The translations under genes were made by a program, and so were the position numbers. Shown here piece by piece: positions 8,840 through 52,579 of a stretch of DNA of 64,000 nt (positions are counted from its first letter, which is position 1; every line of letters starts with the position of its first letter). The notes beneath the pieces were generated by a model. It was not told the origin of the DNA and made no database searches. It saw only the letters and a list, made by a program, of their open reading frames with translations. The stretch is taken from the NCBI RefSeq assembly GCF_000424385.1, contig NZ_AUJU01000025.1, forward strand, positions 1 to 64,000, given 5' to 3'. The stretch is from Butyrivibrio sp. LC3010 (GTDB lineage: Bacteria; Bacillota; Clostridia; Lachnospirales; Lachnospiraceae).

Positions 8840-10384
8840 ATGAAGAAAAGGATTTTTGCAGTAATCTCAGCTGTCACTGCATTGGTTATCGGTTTGTCGC
8901 CAATTTCAGGATTAGCTACCAGAGCTGCCAACGATAGCAGGATTAAAATTGATGTCACAGGAACTTATGAACAGACTACGGCCAGGAAAATGCTTGAAGA
9001 TATCAATGCATTTCGTACCGGAAATGATGCCTGGTATTGGAATGAGAGCAATACGGAAAAGGTACAGTGTAAAGATCTTAAGGCATTGGAATATGATTAT
9101 GAACTTGAAAAAACTGCAATGCAAAGAGCTATGGAGATAGCAGTTTATTTCAGTCATGAAAGACCTAATGGTACAGACTGTTTTACTGCATTTTCGCCTA
9201 CTAATGGATTTGTTGGGGAAAATTTAGCCTTTGGATATTTTTCGGCAGAGGAGGCCTTTAAAGGCTGGCAGGAAACGAATAACCCATTTGTGGGGCAGGG
9301 ACATCGCAGGAGCATGCTTGACCCTTGTTTTACCTGTGTTGCAATAGGACATGTAGTACGTGATGGTGTTGACTATTGGGTTCAGGAATTTCGCTCTGTG
9401 AATTTACAAAAAACAGCAACTAATGTCACCAATGCAACCAAAAATGTGAATGTAGAATTTCTTTTATCAAAGCTTAAATACAAAGCGACTCCTTCATCTA
9501 TTAGAATGAAGTACGGGGATAATTATGATCTGAGTAATGTGAAAGAGTCTTTATATTGTGAAAATGATATAGATTTTCGCAGTGAAAAGCCATCGATTAT
9601 TACAAAGCCGATTGATAACTTTTCGGTATCGGATAGTAATGTGCTAAAGGTAGACGGAAGTACACTTAAGGGTGTAGCAGCAGGTTCTGCGAACCTGACA
9701 GGATTACTTTCAGATAGAACAACGTACAGCATTCCTGTTAATGTCAATGCAGTTTCGCTGTCTGGAGCCACTGTTTCTTCAATAGGATATCAGGAATACA
9801 CAGGTTCTTCTATTACACCGGCATTTACTGTTACGTTAAACGGTAAGACGCTTGTAGAAAATACAGATTACACCGTCGAATATTCGAATAATGTAAACGA
9901 AGGCTATGGGAAAATTACAATTACAGGAAAAGGCAATTATTCCGGAACAAAAACCACAAGCTTTGTGATATTAAAAAAATGCACAACCGGTAATAATTCT
10001 CAGGTTATTTTCAGGAATCAGGGCTATAATGATGGATCACAAAGCGGATTTGTAGAAGATGGTAGTGATGAGTCAGATTTAAAAGAAAAGAAGTCTGTAA
10101 CTGCCACAAAAGTAAAAAGCTTTTCTCTTACTAAAGGTAAGAAATGTCTTACTGTAAAATGGAGCAAGGTATCCGATGTCAGTGGATATGAGATTCAGTA
10201 TGCTAACTCAAAAAGCATGGATGGAGCAAAGATAAAATCTGCGAAGGTATCAAAGAGTAGCCTTAAAATCAAAAAGCTTAAGTCCGGAAAGAAATACTAT
10301 GTCAGAATCAGAAGTTATAAAAAGGACGGAGAAGTGAAAGTTTATTCAGCCTGGAGCAAAATTAAAAAGGTAAAGGTAAAATAA
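8840..10384 (+). CDS. Secreted CAP/SCP-domain protein with C-terminal fibronectin type III domain
   Basis: 514 residues with an N-terminal signal peptide (MKKRIFAVISAVTALVIGL...). Residues about 45-185 form a CAP (SCP/PR-1-like) domain: an AMEIAVYFSHERPNG block carrying the first His, GENLAFG, then GHRRSMLDPCFTCVAIGH and WVQEF, matching the family's conserved H/E/H cavity. An Ig-like segment with GKTLVENTDYTV..YSNNVNEG and ITGKGNYSGT (about 300-380) follows. The C-terminal about 90 residues are an FN3-like domain (V.WSKVSDVSGYEIQYA; Y.VRIRSYK). Extracellular localisation is well supported, but biochemical activity of bacterial CAP proteins is mostly unknown. Like the preceding gene it is a surface/secreted protein, but a terminator separates the two. 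Confidence 0.85.
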   Translation: MKKRIFAVISAVTALVIGLSPISGLATRAANDSRIKIDVTGTYEQTTARKMLEDINAFRTGNDAWYWNESNTEKVQCKDLKALEYDYELEKTAMQRAMEIAVYFSHERPNGTDCFTAFSPTNGFVGENLAFGYFSAEEAFKGWQETNNPFVGQGHRRSMLDPCFTCVAIGHVVRDGVDYWVQEFRSVNLQKTATNVTNATKNVNVEFLLSKLKYKATPSSIRMKYGDNYDLSNVKESLYCENDIDFRSEKPSIITKPIDNFSVSDSNVLKVDGSTLKGVAAGSANLTGLLSDRTTYSIPVNVNAVSLSGATVSSIGYQEYTGSSITPAFTVTLNGKTLVENTDYTVEYSNNVNEGYGKITITGKGNYSGTKTTSFVILKKCTTGNNSQVIFRNQGYNDGSQSGFVEDGSDESDLKEKKSVTATKVKSFSLTKGKKCLTVKWSKVSDVSGYEIQYANSKSMDGAKIKSAKVSKSSLKIKKLKSGKKYYVRIRSYKKDGEVKVYSAWSKIKKVKVK

Positions 10385-12390: not shown

Positions 12391-12572
12391 TATGTCCTTT
12401 AGTTTCATATAAATATTTTATAACAACAAAAATACCTTCGCAATTACTAAAGGAAAACAGTTTTTATCCGATATATAGGTTGAGAATGAGGATGGCGGAG
12501 CTATCTTCCTTCGAAGTATTTAGCTGGGCAGACCCGTGATGGGTGTGCTCATTTTTTTGAGCATGCAAGTCG

Positions 12573-12599
12573 ACTTGGCGAGGTCTTTTCGAGTCTGGT
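12573..12599 (+). repeat. GA-clamp palindrome
   Basis: Arms ACT-T-GGC and GTC-T-GGT flank GA-GG-TCTTT-TC-GA. The inner triplet GGC/GTC and outer ACT/GGT use G-U pairs, so the fold is kept in RNA although the DNA arms are imperfect. It matches the consensus layout of the copies at 27279, 37530 and 37574. Confidence 0.7.
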
Positions 12600-12617
12600 A
12601 GAGTTTGCTTGAGCAGA

Positions 12618-12648
12618 GTACCGGCGAGATATTCCACGAGCTTAGTGC
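12618..12648 (+). repeat. GA-clamp palindrome, decayed copy
   Basis: Aligns with the 37530 copy over GAGCAGAG..AC and AGTGCGAGC. The inner stem GGC/GCT and both GA dinucleotides remain, but the outer arm no longer pairs. It sits about 20 bp after the copy at 12573, the same paired arrangement as at 27.3 and 37.5 kb. Confidence 0.5.
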
Positions 12649-18202: not shown

Positions 18203-18754
18203 TTGCAGAATATTATCTTGGCATTCGCAAAGCAGGAGGATGCGCTGAATTTCAAAAGTATATTGATGCGTGGCGGATTTGAGCCTGCCTATGTATGTCT
18301 GACCGGTGCACAGGCCCTTTCAGCAATGGAAAACCTGGGCAACGGTGTGATAATCTGCGGCTATCGCCTTGGAGATATGCTCAGTACGGAACTGTACGAG
18401 GAAATGTCTGAGTATTTTAAAATGCTTCTTATCGCCAGTAAATCAAAGGCTGACGATCTTGATTTTTATGGGAAAGACAATATTGTCTATCTTCCCACTC
18501 CCCTAAAAAAGGATGACCTTTTTTCAACTGTATCCATGATGATCGAGGGCGTTGCGACAAGACGCAAGAAGGTCAAAGAAAAACGCCGCTTTAGAAGCAG
18601 CGAGGATCAGAAAATAATTGACAGTGCAAAGTCACTCCTTATGGAGCGTCACAACATGACCGAGCCTGAAGCGCATAAATATCTGCAGAAGTGCTCAATG
18701 GACTCCGGAACCTCCCTCCTTGAAACGGCCGAAATGGTGATAGCACTTAAGTGA
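18203..18754 (+). CDS. ANTAR-domain RNA-binding response regulator
   Basis: 183 residues from a TTG start preceded by GAGGAA. The N-terminal about 115 residues are a receiver-like domain that appears to lack the usual phospho-acceptor aspartate pocket (VIICGYRLGDML in place of the canonical D). A basic linker (TRRKKVKEKRRFRSSED) leads to a C-terminal ANTAR domain with the family's Ala/aromatic-type pattern (IIDSAKSLLMERHNMTEPEAHKYLQKCSMDSG). ANTAR proteins bind paired hexaloop hairpins in leaders and prevent termination. The position directly after glnA, and the hexaloop in the glnA leader, suggest glnA is its target. Confidence 0.85.
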   Translation: MQNIILAFAKQEDALNFKSILMRGGFEPAYVCLTGAQALSAMENLGNGVIICGYRLGDMLSTELYEEMSEYFKMLLIASKSKADDLDFYGKDNIVYLPTPLKKDDLFSTVSMMIEGVATRRKKVKEKRRFRSSEDQKIIDSAKSLLMERHNMTEPEAHKYLQKCSMDSGTSLLETAEMVIALK

Positions 18755-18791
18755 GCTCTTAGCGAGGTACTTTCGAGCTTAGAGCTCACTT
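18749..18791 (+). repeat. GA-clamp palindrome spanning the stop codon of the ANTAR gene
   Basis: The most perfect copy. AAGTGAGCTCT (18749-18759) pairs fully with AGAGCTCACTT (18781-18791); inside, T, AGC, GA, GG, TACTT, TC, GA, GCT, T. The stop codon TGA (18752-18754) is inside the left arm. There is no T tract, so it is not a standard terminator. Confidence 0.85.
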
Positions 18792-18960
18792 AGTTCTGGC
18801 GAGCGAAGCGAGAGCAGAACTTCCTTGGAAAGCTTAGCGAGGTCTTTTCGAGCTTAGAGCATACATGGTCATTTCGAGCAAAGCGAGAGCAGAACTTCCT
18901 TAGAAATTTAGCGAGGTCTTTCGGGCATAGAGTTTACTTAGTTACTTAGTTCTGGCGAGA
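18792..18960 (+). repeat. Tandem array of decaying GA-clamp units with GAGCGAAGCGAG spacer repeats
   Basis: GAGCRAAGCGAGAGCAGAACTTCCTT occurs (in two parts) at 18801 and 18876, a 75-bp period. GA-clamp hairpins sit at 18833-18857 (AGC-GA-GG-TCTTT-TC-GA-GCT) and 18907-18931 (AGC-GA-GG-TCTT-TC-GG-GCA, decayed). AGTTCTG/CAGAACT (18792-18821) forms another hairpin. This fills the gap before the thioesterase gene. Confidence 0.65.
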
Positions 18961-27271: not shown

Positions 27272-27278
27272 AAGCAAA

Positions 27279-27309
27279 GCACTTGACGAGGAATTATCAA
27301 GTCTGGTGT
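27279..27309 (+). repeat. GA-clamp palindrome, 31-nt core
   Basis: GCACT-T-GAC and GTC-T-GGTGT flank GA-GG-AATTA-TC-AA. The outer pairs include two G-U pairs, and the second clamp dinucleotide is AA instead of GA. Same length and layout as the copies at 37530 and 37574. Confidence 0.75.
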
Positions 27310-27320
27310 GAGCTGCAAGC

Positions 27321-27350
27321 CAACTTACAGAGGTTAGTTGAGCTTGATTG
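27321..27350 (+). repeat. GA-clamp palindrome, decayed copy
   Basis: CAACT-T-ACA and GCT-T-GATTG flank GA-GG-TTAG-TT-GA. The clamp and outer arm partly survive; the inner triplet no longer pairs. It follows the 27279 copy at a spacing like that of the 37530/37574 pair. Confidence 0.45.
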
Positions 27351-27387
27351 AAGGTAGAGCAGAAGAACGAAGGAAAGAGGTAGACCG

Positions 27388-36936: not shown

Positions 36937-37311
36937 ATGGCAAAGTTATCTACAGCAGAGATTATCGATGCAATCAAAGAGTTATCAGTTCTTGAGCTTA
37001 ACGATCTTGTTAAGGCTTGTGAGGAAGAGTTCGGCGTATCAGCAGCAGCAGGTGTTGTTGTAGCAGCAGCAGGCGGCGCAGCAGCAGCTGAGGAAGAGAA
37101 GACTGAGTTCAACGTAGAGCTTACAGAAGTTGGCCCTAACAAGGTTAAGGTTATCAAGGTTGTTCGTGAGATCACAGGTCTTGGACTTAAGGAAGCAAAG
37201 GATCTTGTAGACAATGCTCCTAAGATGATCAAGGAAGGCGCTTCTAAGGAAGAGGCTGATGATATCAAGGCTAAGGTTGAGGCTGAAGGCGCTAAGGTTA
37301 CTCTTAAGTAA
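36937..37311 (+). CDS. rplL: 50S ribosomal protein L7/L12
   Basis: 124 residues. It is the flexible stalk protein that recruits translation factors. The N-terminal dimerisation part ([31 protein letters not shown]) is followed by an Ala/Gly hinge and the C-terminal domain ([42 protein letters not shown]). Confidence 0.97.
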
Positions 37312-37320
37312 TCTTGTCTA

Positions 37321-37459
37321 CTTCAAAGTCAAGCATGTAAATAAAAAAGAAAGCTACTTGCAAGTTTACTTGCGAAGTAGCTTTCTTTTTTATTTACATA
37401 TTTGACGCGAAGCGTCAATTGAGGAATGCGAAGCATTCTGAGTGTGCTTGACTTTGAAG
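37321..37459 (+). terminator. Compound multi-helix terminator after rplL
   Basis: An outer stem CTTCAAAGTCAAGCA (37321-37335) pairs with TGCTTGACTTTGAAG (37445-37459). It encloses a perfect 24-bp hairpin (37336-37359 with 37375-37398, rich in A on one side and T on the other), the small hairpin TTGACGC-GAA-GCGTCAA (37402-37418) and GA-GGAATGC-GAA-GCATTCT-GA (37421-37441). The long hairpin with its T-rich arm should terminate transcription. Confidence 0.8.
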
Positions 37460-37529
37460 CAGGCAAAGAGATAAAGGTGAATACTTGCAAGTTTACTTGC
37501 GAAGTAGCTTTCTTTTTTATTTGAGCAGA

Positions 37530-37560
37530 GCACTTGACGAGGTATTGTCGAGTCTAGTGC
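37530..37560 (+). repeat. GA-clamp palindrome, 31-nt reference copy
   Basis: GCACT-T-GAC-GA-GG-TATTG-TC-GA-GTC-T-AGTGC: a 5-bp outer arm, a T/T mismatch, a 3-bp inner arm, facing GA dinucleotides (tandem G-A pairs), then G-C and G-U pairs closing a 5-base loop. Confidence 0.85.
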
Positions 37561-37573
37561 GAGCCATGTAAGT

Positions 37574-37604
37574 CCACTTAGCGAGGTTCTTCCGAGCTTA
37601 GTGG
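37574..37604 (+). repeat. GA-clamp palindrome with different arms
   Basis: CCACT-T-AGC-GA-GG-TTCTT-CC-GA-GCT-T-AGTGG. All arm bases that differ from the 37530 copy are compensated. An outer ATGTAAGT (37566-37573) pairs with ACTTACAT (37610-37617). Confidence 0.85.
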
Positions 37605-37729
37605 AGCTTACTTACATATTTGACGCGAAGCGTCAAATGAGGAATGCGAAGCATTCTGAGTGTTCTCGACTTTGCGAAATTATTAAAAAAATATTAAAAA
37701 TCAATACTTGACTTTTTGAAAAATTCTGC

Positions 37730-37758
37730 TTGACGTAAAAAAAAGTTTATTGTAGAAT
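37730..37758 (+). promoter_or_regulatory. rpoBC promoter
   Basis: TTGACG (37730-37735), a 17-bp spacer and TAGAAT (37753-37758). A structured leader follows: AGTGGTAGGCA (about 37779-37789) can pair with TGCCTGACTACT (37815-37826). rpoBC is thus transcribed separately from rplJL. Confidence 0.8.
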
Positions 37759-37856
37759 GGATGATGCACTATTGTGGAGTGGTAGGCATTTTGCGCGCTT
37801 TTTTAGAATACGCATGCCTGACTACTAAATAAAAAATAAGAACGGGGTGAATGTCA

Positions 37857-51324: not shown

Positions 51325-52392
51325 ATGTTAATGACAATATGGTCTATACTCAGACTTGTAATTTTTATGTTCACAGTACCTATGTGCATAGGACAACTGT
51401 TCAAATTTATTTTGAAAAAAGAACTTAGAACTCCGGGGATTACTTTCTTACTTGGATTTTTTGTCTACTCAGGGATTATTCAGATAATATCCATCTTATG
51501 TATTATGACAATTGCGAGTAAGCCTCATGCTTTTGAAACTTGTTTCAAATGGAGTCTTTTTGTGGTACTGCTTTTTTCTGTAGCAGGTATTTTCAGATTT
51601 GATAAGACTATGTTTAAAAAGCCTGATATAAAGGGACTTAGTATAGATACCAAGATCTTTTATGGAATATTCTTTGCACTTGTAGTGTTCCAAATGGTAA
51701 TGGCGATTGTAACCAGAATATTTGACGGAGACAATTCGTATTATGTCACTCAGTCTGTAATCGCACAAAAAATGGGAGCAATGTATACTGTAGATCCTAA
51801 TAAAGGCGGAAGCATTATGCTTGATGGGAGGCATGCGCTTGCGGCTATTCCAATGTGGATAGCGTTTATTGCAAAAGCTGCAACTGTACATTCTACAATC
51901 GTTGCGTATACTGCTTGGCCGATTCTGATCATTCCGTTGGCATATTTTATTTATCACGAGATAGCTAAAGTGCTGTTTGCGGATAATATCGCGTTGAGAC
52001 CGATTTTCATGATCATTGTCAATATGCTTATGATCTTTGGAAATATATCGATCTATACTCCGGCGACATTCTTTCTGATGAGAACCTGGCAGGGAAAGTC
52101 CATGCTTACAAGTATTGCCTTTCCAACTATCCTGTTGATTTTTTTATGGATGTTTAAGGAAACGGGCGGAGAAGGAAATCTTTCGCTACGAGCTTCTTTC
52201 TGGGGACTGTTGGCAATGGTGAACATGTTTTCAGGAATGTGTTCAGAAATGGGAGTTGTGTTCGGGGCTGGACTTGTTATGTTGCTAACACTTGTTCTAC
52301 TGTATTCATCAAAGCGAGTGACAGTTCTTTTAGGAGCATTTTGCTGTCTTATTCCAAATATTATTTATGTTGTGCTATATAAGCTTATGTGA
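51325..52392 (+). CDS. Multi-spanning membrane protein, N-terminal part of a probably split gene (DUF6077-like)
   Basis: 355 residues with about 9 hydrophobic helices and an extracellular loop carrying DGDNSYYVTQSVIAQKMG. It resembles large Lachnospiraceae membrane proteins annotated as DUF6077-like; I cannot assign a function. The frame ends in LYKLM at a TGA where an 87-bp tandem repeat begins. The next frame (52580) continues with helices and an extracytoplasmic tail that would fit the same protein, so this is probably the 5' half of an interrupted gene. Weak AAAGGA ribosome site. Confidence 0.6.
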   Translation: MLMTIWSILRLVIFMFTVPMCIGQLFKFILKKELRTPGITFLLGFFVYSGIIQIISILCIMTIASKPHAFETCFKWSLFVVLLFSVAGIFRFDKTMFKKPDIKGLSIDTKIFYGIFFALVVFQMVMAIVTRIFDGDNSYYVTQSVIAQKMGAMYTVDPNKGGSIMLDGRHALAAIPMWIAFIAKAATVHSTIVAYTAWPILIIPLAYFIYHEIAKVLFADNIALRPIFMIIVNMLMIFGNISIYTPATFFLMRTWQGKSMLTSIAFPTILLIFLWMFKETGGEGNLSLRASFWGLLAMVNMFSGMCSEMGVVFGAGLVMLLTLVLLYSSKRVTVLLGAFCCLIPNIIYVVLYKLM

Positions 52393-52550
52393 GGAGGAAC
52401 CATCATGACGAAGTCATGATTCGGAATGGTTCCGACCGATAGGGCAGGATTACGAAGTAATCGTGCCAATACACAAAGAGGAGGAACCATCATGACGAAG
52501 TCATGATTCGGAATGGTTCCGACCGATAGGGCAGGATTACGAAATAATCC
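52391..52550 (+). repeat. Two tandem 87-bp structured repeats
   Basis: Unit starts GAGGAGGAACC at 52391 and 52478. Each holds GA-GGAACCAT enclosing CATGAC-GAA-GTCATG, then ATGGTTCC-GA, and a second hairpin of the type GGATTAC-GAA-GTAATC. In unit 2 the second hairpin gains a G-C pair that unit 1 lacks. The repeats lie between the two halves of a membrane protein. Confidence 0.8.
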
Positions 52551-52579
52551 TGCTGATAAATATTTTACGAGGATGATAT

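Follow-up and report, generated by a model that had tools for sequence, protein, structure and literature searches.

We describe here a family of short hairpins with a conserved tandem GA clamp, dispersed through Butyrivibrio genomes and through other genera of the same family, the Lachnospiraceae. The hairpin family is genuine and, judging from aligned orthologous sites, has inserted since close species split. Its members are probably small palindromic DNA elements of this bacterial family, mobile but non-autonomous, whose arms are kept Watson-Crick paired at the DNA level.

The hairpins and their copies in the window

The window, meaning the whole 64-kb stretch of Butyrivibrio sp. LC3010 DNA that was analyzed, carries a 91-nt unit (37523..37613) made of two hairpins in direct tandem, located between the T-run TTTTTTATTT and ACAT. 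This unit and all window features given below lie on the plus strand. Both hairpins were found as outlined in a preliminary description, which had proposed a 31-nt plan composed of a 5-bp arm, a T.T mismatch, a 3-bp arm, a GA, 2 bp, a 5-nt loop and a second GA facing the first. The core of hairpin A (37530..37560) reads GCACT T GAC GA GG TATTG TC GA GTC T AGTGC, and that of hairpin B (37574..37604), which has an outer arm beyond the core, reads CCACT T AGC GA GG TTCTT CC GA GCT T AGTGG. They scored 57.4 and 50.7 bits, respectively, with R1, a covariance model of 38 nt and 10 pairs built on 22 copies of the same genome. The alignment behind this model (A1) keeps 22 of 28 rows, with three core-identical rows and three non-members (L011:449, L018:558 and L024) omitted. 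The pattern CGAGGN5YCGAGNYT gives 24 matches on both strands of the 4.59-Mb genome, one of which (L024) was judged a non-member by eye; read in reverse, it gives 3.

In the window, R1 detected six copies, at 12568, 18752, 18827, 27276, 37527 and 37571 (E up to 0.5). Ten places had been listed beforehand, and the six others than 12618, 18907, 27321 and 10382 are thus supported by the model. Among the four places that lack an R1 match, 12618, 18907 and 27321 adjoin true copies, and at 10382 such pairing was not seen by eye either. The starts first given for the copies at 12573, 18749, 18833 and 18907 miss the arm by 2 to 6 bases. Scanning both strands for the structure, with loops of 3-8 nt allowed, produced seven matches: the four with 5-nt loops correspond to the copies at 18748, 18833, 37530 and 37573, and the three with other loop lengths are apparently unrelated.

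At 12568..12605, a single hairpin lies behind a terminator-like T-run and has its decayed neighbor at 12618, and at 27276..27351 a hairpin pair, the second one decayed, lies behind a conserved terminator. A hairpin of a second class, X, sits on the TGA stop of ORF 18203-18754 (18748..18792) and has a 12-bp outer run, TAAGTGAGCTCT/AGAGCTCACTTA. With the adjoining hairpin Y (GTTCTGGCGAGCGAAGCGAGAGCAGAAC, 18793..18820) as partner, it forms a composite, about 75 nt long, of dispersed occurrence. A second copy of the X core (18827..18864), matched by R1, lies in a 75-nt tandem duplication, and its outer arms no longer pair.

Distribution among relatives

R1 has 60 matches in the LC3010 genome at E<=0.01. 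Within the genus, 66 of 79 Butyrivibrio genomes, LC3010 included, carry matches (E<=0.001), with a maximum of 55 copies. Across the family, matches were found in 72 of 348 sampled genomes, i.e. 71 of 333 genera (E<=1e-4), and in a class-wide sample of 391 genomes the 8 with matches all belong to the same family. The genus, family and class searches were run with stricter filters, so that weak matches are lost from these counts. Copy number is patchy across genomes. Searching relatives with a covariance model, as the preliminary description had proposed, gave copies in abundance, beyond what chance would provide.

The hairpins do not correspond to a known RNA family, a candidate rejected on the basis of Rfam searches of the window sites and of 18 loci of relatives. 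At the gathering level, no family lies over the hairpin sites of the 64-kb window. At E<=10, the interval 37300-37800 shows 28 sub-gathering matches, mostly on a palindrome at 37323-37410, and none of them covers the hairpins. The 18 loci of relatives yielded just 14 tRNAs and one Clostridiales-1. The first impression that no named family has this plan was thus upheld in Rfam and in a literature search; the latter, which left most subscription journals outside its scope and is weak evidence for novelty, did not find the family described. Butyrivibrio is unmentioned in the accessible part of PMC6006769.

Anatomy of the repeat units

The commonest Butyrivibrio unit consists of hairpin A (TTGAGCAGAGCACTTAGCGAGGTNTTNTCGAGCTTAGTGCGAGCCATG) followed about 44 nt on by hairpin B, in direct and not inverted order. 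The outer arms of hairpin B vary (GGG/CCC, CAAG/CTTG and others). Conservation was profiled over 70 distinct copies, which are mostly first hairpins and include some orthologs. It begins at TTTG, 19 bases 5' of GAGG, and fades about 73 bases past GAGG, i.e. about 92 nt from the TTTG start. Tandem arrays have a 91-nt period in LC3010 (C3 and C20) and in two genomes of other genera (G353 and G336), and a period of 92 in some others. The 91-nt arrays comprise two to four units, a variable module number reminiscent of BOX elements. The second composite, of about 75 nt, combines hairpin X on a stop codon with a GCGAAGC-type hairpin Y. Parts of this X+Y composite have 27 further matches in G015 (40 candidates scored), and at L007 (about 1530-1800) hairpin Y occurs four times in tandem, with its own spacers, behind one gene.

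Wider sets of copies were collected with the core motif, the tested pairs being left free and near-identical copies (<=6 differences in 70 nt) merged; they contain a few rows resembling chance matches (e.g. L042). A set of 124 copies served for counts of closing pairs and GAs, and one of 136 copies, representing 122 distinct cores, for the pairing test. G-T forms the inner closing pair of 116 of the 124 copies, and in 68 a GA faces a GA outside the 5-bp arm. Pairing extends beyond these outer GAs: A-type copies, in a register with a 1-nt bulge, average 2.14 of 4 pairs versus 1.86 when shuffled (0 of 1000 shuffles above 2.00), and the other GA/GA copies average 3.31 of 5 versus 2.68 (none above 3.03). 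At the hairpin foot of the 70 copies, position -13 is C in 63% and GCAG is commoner than GTAG; a conserved GTAG or CGTC tag was not seen there.

Presence and absence at orthologous sites

The 91-nt unit of the window lies in the rplL-rpoB gap. The start of RpoB was recovered from 59 of the 79 genus genomes and 30 rplL-rpoB gaps were read; the element is present in one, that of the window itself, and the other 29 lack it. At the 27279 site, the terminator is common to LC3010 and five relatives, yet the element occurs only in LC3010 and, as a weak copy (R1 E 0.067), in G025, its closest relative over the first 120 RpoB residues; behind the same terminator, it is missing in four of the five relatives. 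Absence from the other rplL-rpoB gaps, together with the empty counterparts of 27279, therefore indicates that copies are inserted.

The window also offers a paralogous empty site. The first copy of a duplicated terminator arm (37355..37395) ends in TTTTTTATTT and is directly followed by ACATATTTGACG, as the direct repeats D1 and D2 show, and this region is in a single-copy state in G025. Comparison of TTTTTTATTT-ACAT with TTTTTTATTT-[GAGC...CTTACTT]-ACAT delimits the element. In this single case, neither terminal inverted repeats nor a target-site duplication was seen. The exact junction is based on this one paralogous site, the orthologous flanks of A/B units being too diverged for base-exact ends. 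The duplication around the element involves another composite repeat (37323-37456 and 37608-37674) with GACGCGAAGCGTC and AATGCGAAGCATT mini-hairpins, present as a single copy in G025.

At C7c, the element is absent from all five relatives: G015 and G016 have short gaps, and G014 and G066 a different repeat. The latter, seen in L260 (G066) and L261 (G014), is a distinct dispersed palindromic repeat (CCCCTCATCCG...AAGGGGAAGGC) placed where LC3010 has X+Y. At C11b, the element is present in LC3010, G016 and G066 (in G066 by eye, being missed by R1 at E<=0.01) and was not seen in G015, G025 and G014, so that G015 is empty at both C7c and C11b. At 18752, R1 matches the X-class hairpin at the same site in G025 and G014 and gives no match in G015, G016 and G066; past the stop, G066 has a sequence similar to the 5' half of the copy in G025, perhaps what is left of the element. 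When the 35 clusters of LC3010 were compared with 15 G025 loci, four sites besides 27279 were clearly common by flank match.

The preliminary description had offered a mobile palindrome copied with its structure as one of two readings. Lineage-specific insertions, empty sites, tandem units and patchy copy number all support it.

Covariation of the arms

Covariation was judged with shuffles and slid registers. In the 22 seed cores, 93.2% of 220 cells are paired and 24 are doubly changed. None of 500 shuffles attained either value; for two further measures of this test, 9 and 13 of the 500 did. In the 122 distinct cores, restricted to six pairs outside the recognition pattern, 674 of 732 cells are paired (shuffle mean 538) and 160 are doubly changed (shuffle mean 53), compared with at most 308 and 33, respectively, in slid registers. 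The observation that the arms differ while pairing is kept thus holds in both the seed and the wider set.

Compensatory change had also been taken, with G-U pairs, as a sign of selection on an RNA fold, and this argument is not supported by our counts. Selection on an RNA fold is expected to spare G-U. G-U pairs do occur in the window, but over the family their rarity matches that of A-C mismatches (16 and 13 of the 732 cells), and both are depleted to the same extent relative to shuffle means of 93 and 95. Drift of inserted DNA would be expected, by reasoning, to give G-U and A-C equally. A tRNA control produced with ARAGORN was discarded: all bracketed pairs were standard, with no A-C or other mismatch, and its zero count of A-C was for this reason uninformative.

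Folding gave a similar result for the two strands. Compared with shuffles, the window unit has z scores of -3.23 (plus) and -3.30 (minus) as RNA, and of -3.46 and -3.03 on the two strands as DNA. In the minimum-energy RNA fold of the plus strand, the plan is kept for hairpin B, and hairpin A is paired differently. The facing GAs had been read as a known RNA motif. Together with the G-T closing pair they do show a preferred fold of one strand, but this strand can be single-stranded DNA.

Compensatory change at one site across species was seen at 18752, in three genomes, and at C11b, in LC3010 and G066. At C11b, both genomes have perfect outer arms of 13 bp, which are distinguished by 3 pairs; in each of these both bases have changed, and two of the changes, T-A to A-T, cannot have passed through G-U. 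Within the 3-bp inner arm, G066 has one pair with both bases replaced and another that no longer pairs; in the G016 copy, several inner pairs are broken and G-T pairs also occur. Template switching is described as a source of multi-base compensatory changes in the accessible text of PMC8794818. Since G-U is no commoner than A-C and both strands fold equally, we place the pairing constraint at the DNA level, where it would act at spreading or by template switching; the changes at C11b fit this.

Units of about 75-91 nt, each with two hairpins, occupy sites in one lineage that are empty in its relatives, and also occur in tandem. Their core, i.e. the tandem GA clamp, the T.T mismatch and the G-T closing pair, is nearly fixed, with arms varying between copies as Watson-Crick pairs. 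In our proposal, a putative trans-acting enzyme would use the GA clamp to recognize the single strand in its folded form and would insert it, and well-paired copies alone would spread. Copies would then drift, and fold-back template switching at replication would re-perfect some arms. The effect on the host may be mostly passive, the sites being gene ends and the stop codon often coming from the element.

Insertion sites and orientation

Often, the left edge of a unit follows the T-run of a terminator or the end of a tRNA, or falls on a stop codon. A terminator-like hairpin with a T-run precedes 19 of the 35 LC3010 clusters versus 592 of 7000 control positions, in a crude test that misses some evident terminators and whose controls, 150-900 nt away, are mostly coding. 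An open frame of 80 codons or more ends within, or just ahead of, the 5' arm in 30 non-redundant copies (136 without this condition; no control count). Where A-type copies carry GTAGAGC, the TAG comes from the element itself. Copies at L111 and L122 lie directly 3' of tRNAs.

In LC3010, the upstream ORF is co-directional in 32 of the 35 clusters and the downstream ORF in 31, according to simple ORF calling in which some short ORFs are probably false. The bias is weaker in other genera (20 loci, 18 genomes), where these figures are 11 of 20 and 14 of 20. Seven first copies in other genera lie just behind a -10-like box, TATAAT or TATACT (L237, L238, L239, L241, L242, L244 and L255). One of these loci, L237, has four tandem units, and the gene behind them reads, by eye, like lepA.

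Orientation bears on the strongest alternative, in which selection on RNA maintains the hairpins as cis-acting RNA elements that stabilize or process mRNA at gene ends and between cistrons, or whose GA clamp is bound by an RNA-binding protein. The bias in LC3010 is predicted by such a role and counts against the mobile-DNA reading, as do X-class hairpins with paired arms at orthologous sites (18752 and C11b) of diverged species, whose compensatory changes RNA selection could also explain. Folding of the window unit beyond shuffles and conservation of GA and G-T on one strand are likewise in its favor. Nevertheless, we regard it as unlikely: G-U is not favored over A-C, the minus strand folds equally and the plus-strand fold pairs hairpin A differently, most orthologous sites read lack the element, and the orientation bias is weak in other genera. 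Moreover, many copies lie 3' of a terminator, so that the upstream transcript should mostly stop before them. The RNA reading is thereby reduced, and may hold at single sites.

Matched arms at stop codons

In the 30 stop-site copies, the complement run outside the 5-bp arm averages 3.53, compared with 1.90 between different copies, and the real mean was reached by 0 of 2000 shuffles. Runs of at least 5 were found in 11 of the 30 copies versus 59 of 870 between-copy pairings. In these 11 copies, the 3' arm is prolonged by the reverse complement of the 5' flank at that site; ACAAT/ATTGT at C4b and AAAGT/ACTTT at C7c are examples, in which the 5' arm contains the last codons of the host gene. The 11 represent about eight arm types: four are AAGTA/TACTT, two of these being from one orthologous site, and L067 and L268 are also one site. 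The other 19 copies, 11 of them A-type, show no arm match.

Target pairing, fold-back copying and later correction are each a possible source of matched arms. We raise, tentatively and with more doubt than belief, the possibility that the element matches its own target: the 3' arm would be made, or recognized by base pairing, as the reverse complement of the host gene end including the stop, giving a site-specific stem by fold-back copying or guide pairing, in a new mobile palindrome family that uses neither a RAYT nor a known IS. If arms are site-matched at insertion, this would be an unusual form of target recognition or of fold-back copying, testable in culturable Butyrivibrio.

Search for a mobilizing enzyme

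Comparison of Y1_Tnp and GIIM across the 79 genus genomes tied no transposase or other enzyme to the hairpin family; presence and absence were compared by eye, without phylogenetic correction. Mobilization by a RAYT was rejected, Y1 presence not tracking the copies and RAYT-like genes being flanked by other motifs, and so was mobilization by a group II intron, GIIM not tracking them either.

Repeats of REP/REPIN type, moved by the RAYT (a Y1 transposase) of the same genome, would also be palindromic, extragenic and multi-copy, and the accessible texts on these systems report supplied stop codons for GTAG REPs (PMC3733652) and compensatory changes for REPINs (PMC3116915). Furthermore, RAYT-like genes exist in the genus, and Y1_Tnp matches occur in 60 of the 79 genomes. 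We nonetheless consider this origin very improbable. Y1_Tnp has no match in G027 and G069, which carry 24 and 26 copies, and G001, with 8 Y1 matches, carries no copy. None of the Y1 genes of LC3010 is long: there are three of 160-163 aa, plus a fragment (L211) with a frame of 72 residues. The hairpins stand in direct, not inverted, tandem. Among 14 long RAYT-like Y1 loci, some of them near contig ends, hairpins of the family occur in one, about 2.6 kb from the gene, and GGGACGG-type motifs were instead read by eye beside 12 of the 14 genes.

By eye, GGGACGG-type palindromes bracket the long RAYT-like genes in L213, L214, L216, L218, L219, L221 and L224, and in L212, L215, L217, L220 and L225, though not in L222 and L223, the genes have related motifs next to them. 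These palindromes are apparently the RAYT-like genes' own REP family.

Group IIC introns also insert behind terminators and prefer terminator T-runs. Spread by their reverse transcriptase would account for a like preference in the hairpins, and GIIM matches occur in 25 of the 79 genomes, but copies occur in 66, including several with no GIIM match (among them G003, G005, G007, G022, G027 and G069), and no group II intron family is among the Rfam matches; we give this explanation hardly any credence.

Comparison with known systems

The family would represent a new, unnamed mobile palindrome family of a known general kind, BOX- or REPIN-like, with an unusual choice of sites and an unusual clamp. 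As far as the accessible text of PMC3049150 goes, the BOX elements of Streptococcus pneumoniae are likewise small, modular, tandemly repeatable, strongly folded, extragenic and thought to be non-autonomous mobile elements; they have terminal inverted repeats and target duplications, neither of which was found in the Butyrivibrio family (one empty site). The Butyrivibrio family further differs in its host group, in its sites at stop codons and T-runs and in its tandem GA clamp, and the two are likened by description, not by sequence. REPINs and GTAG REPs share with it, in what was accessible of PMC3116915 and PMC3733652, extragenic palindromes, compensatory hairpin changes and ends that give ORFs their stop codons. 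In contrast, the Butyrivibrio family has no linked RAYT, its doublet is direct and not inverted, and GTAG is not conserved; the element thus lacks features that define REPINs.

IS200/IS605 elements have imperfect subterminal hairpins that are recognized in single-stranded DNA beside short T-containing targets. The likeness lies in this recognition of hairpins, but no family hairpin was found beside the four Y1 matches of LC3010 (motif scan and R1 positions). Ends in common with an IS of the same genome, a feature of IS200/IS605-derived MITEs, were likewise not found at these four matches, to which the comparison is confined.

In many genomes of the Lachnospiraceae, a major family of rumen and gut bacteria, gene ends are marked by these apparently undescribed repeats. 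The repeats also call for caution: strong arm covariation, the usual proof of RNA, can have a DNA palindrome as its source, and a comparison of G-U and A-C counts helps tell the two apart.

GA-cis RNA (RF02987) offers a further parallel. It occurs in the same window (52389-52556), where its start falls on the stop of ORF 51325-52392; inspection by eye shows a second, near-identical copy following it. Like the hairpins, it overlaps a stop codon and is in tandem, but its sequence and plan are different and its model has no match at the hairpin sites. The window also contains a DUF3800-XI RNA (RF02975; 50844-50891), located immediately 5' of a short ORF that ends abruptly.
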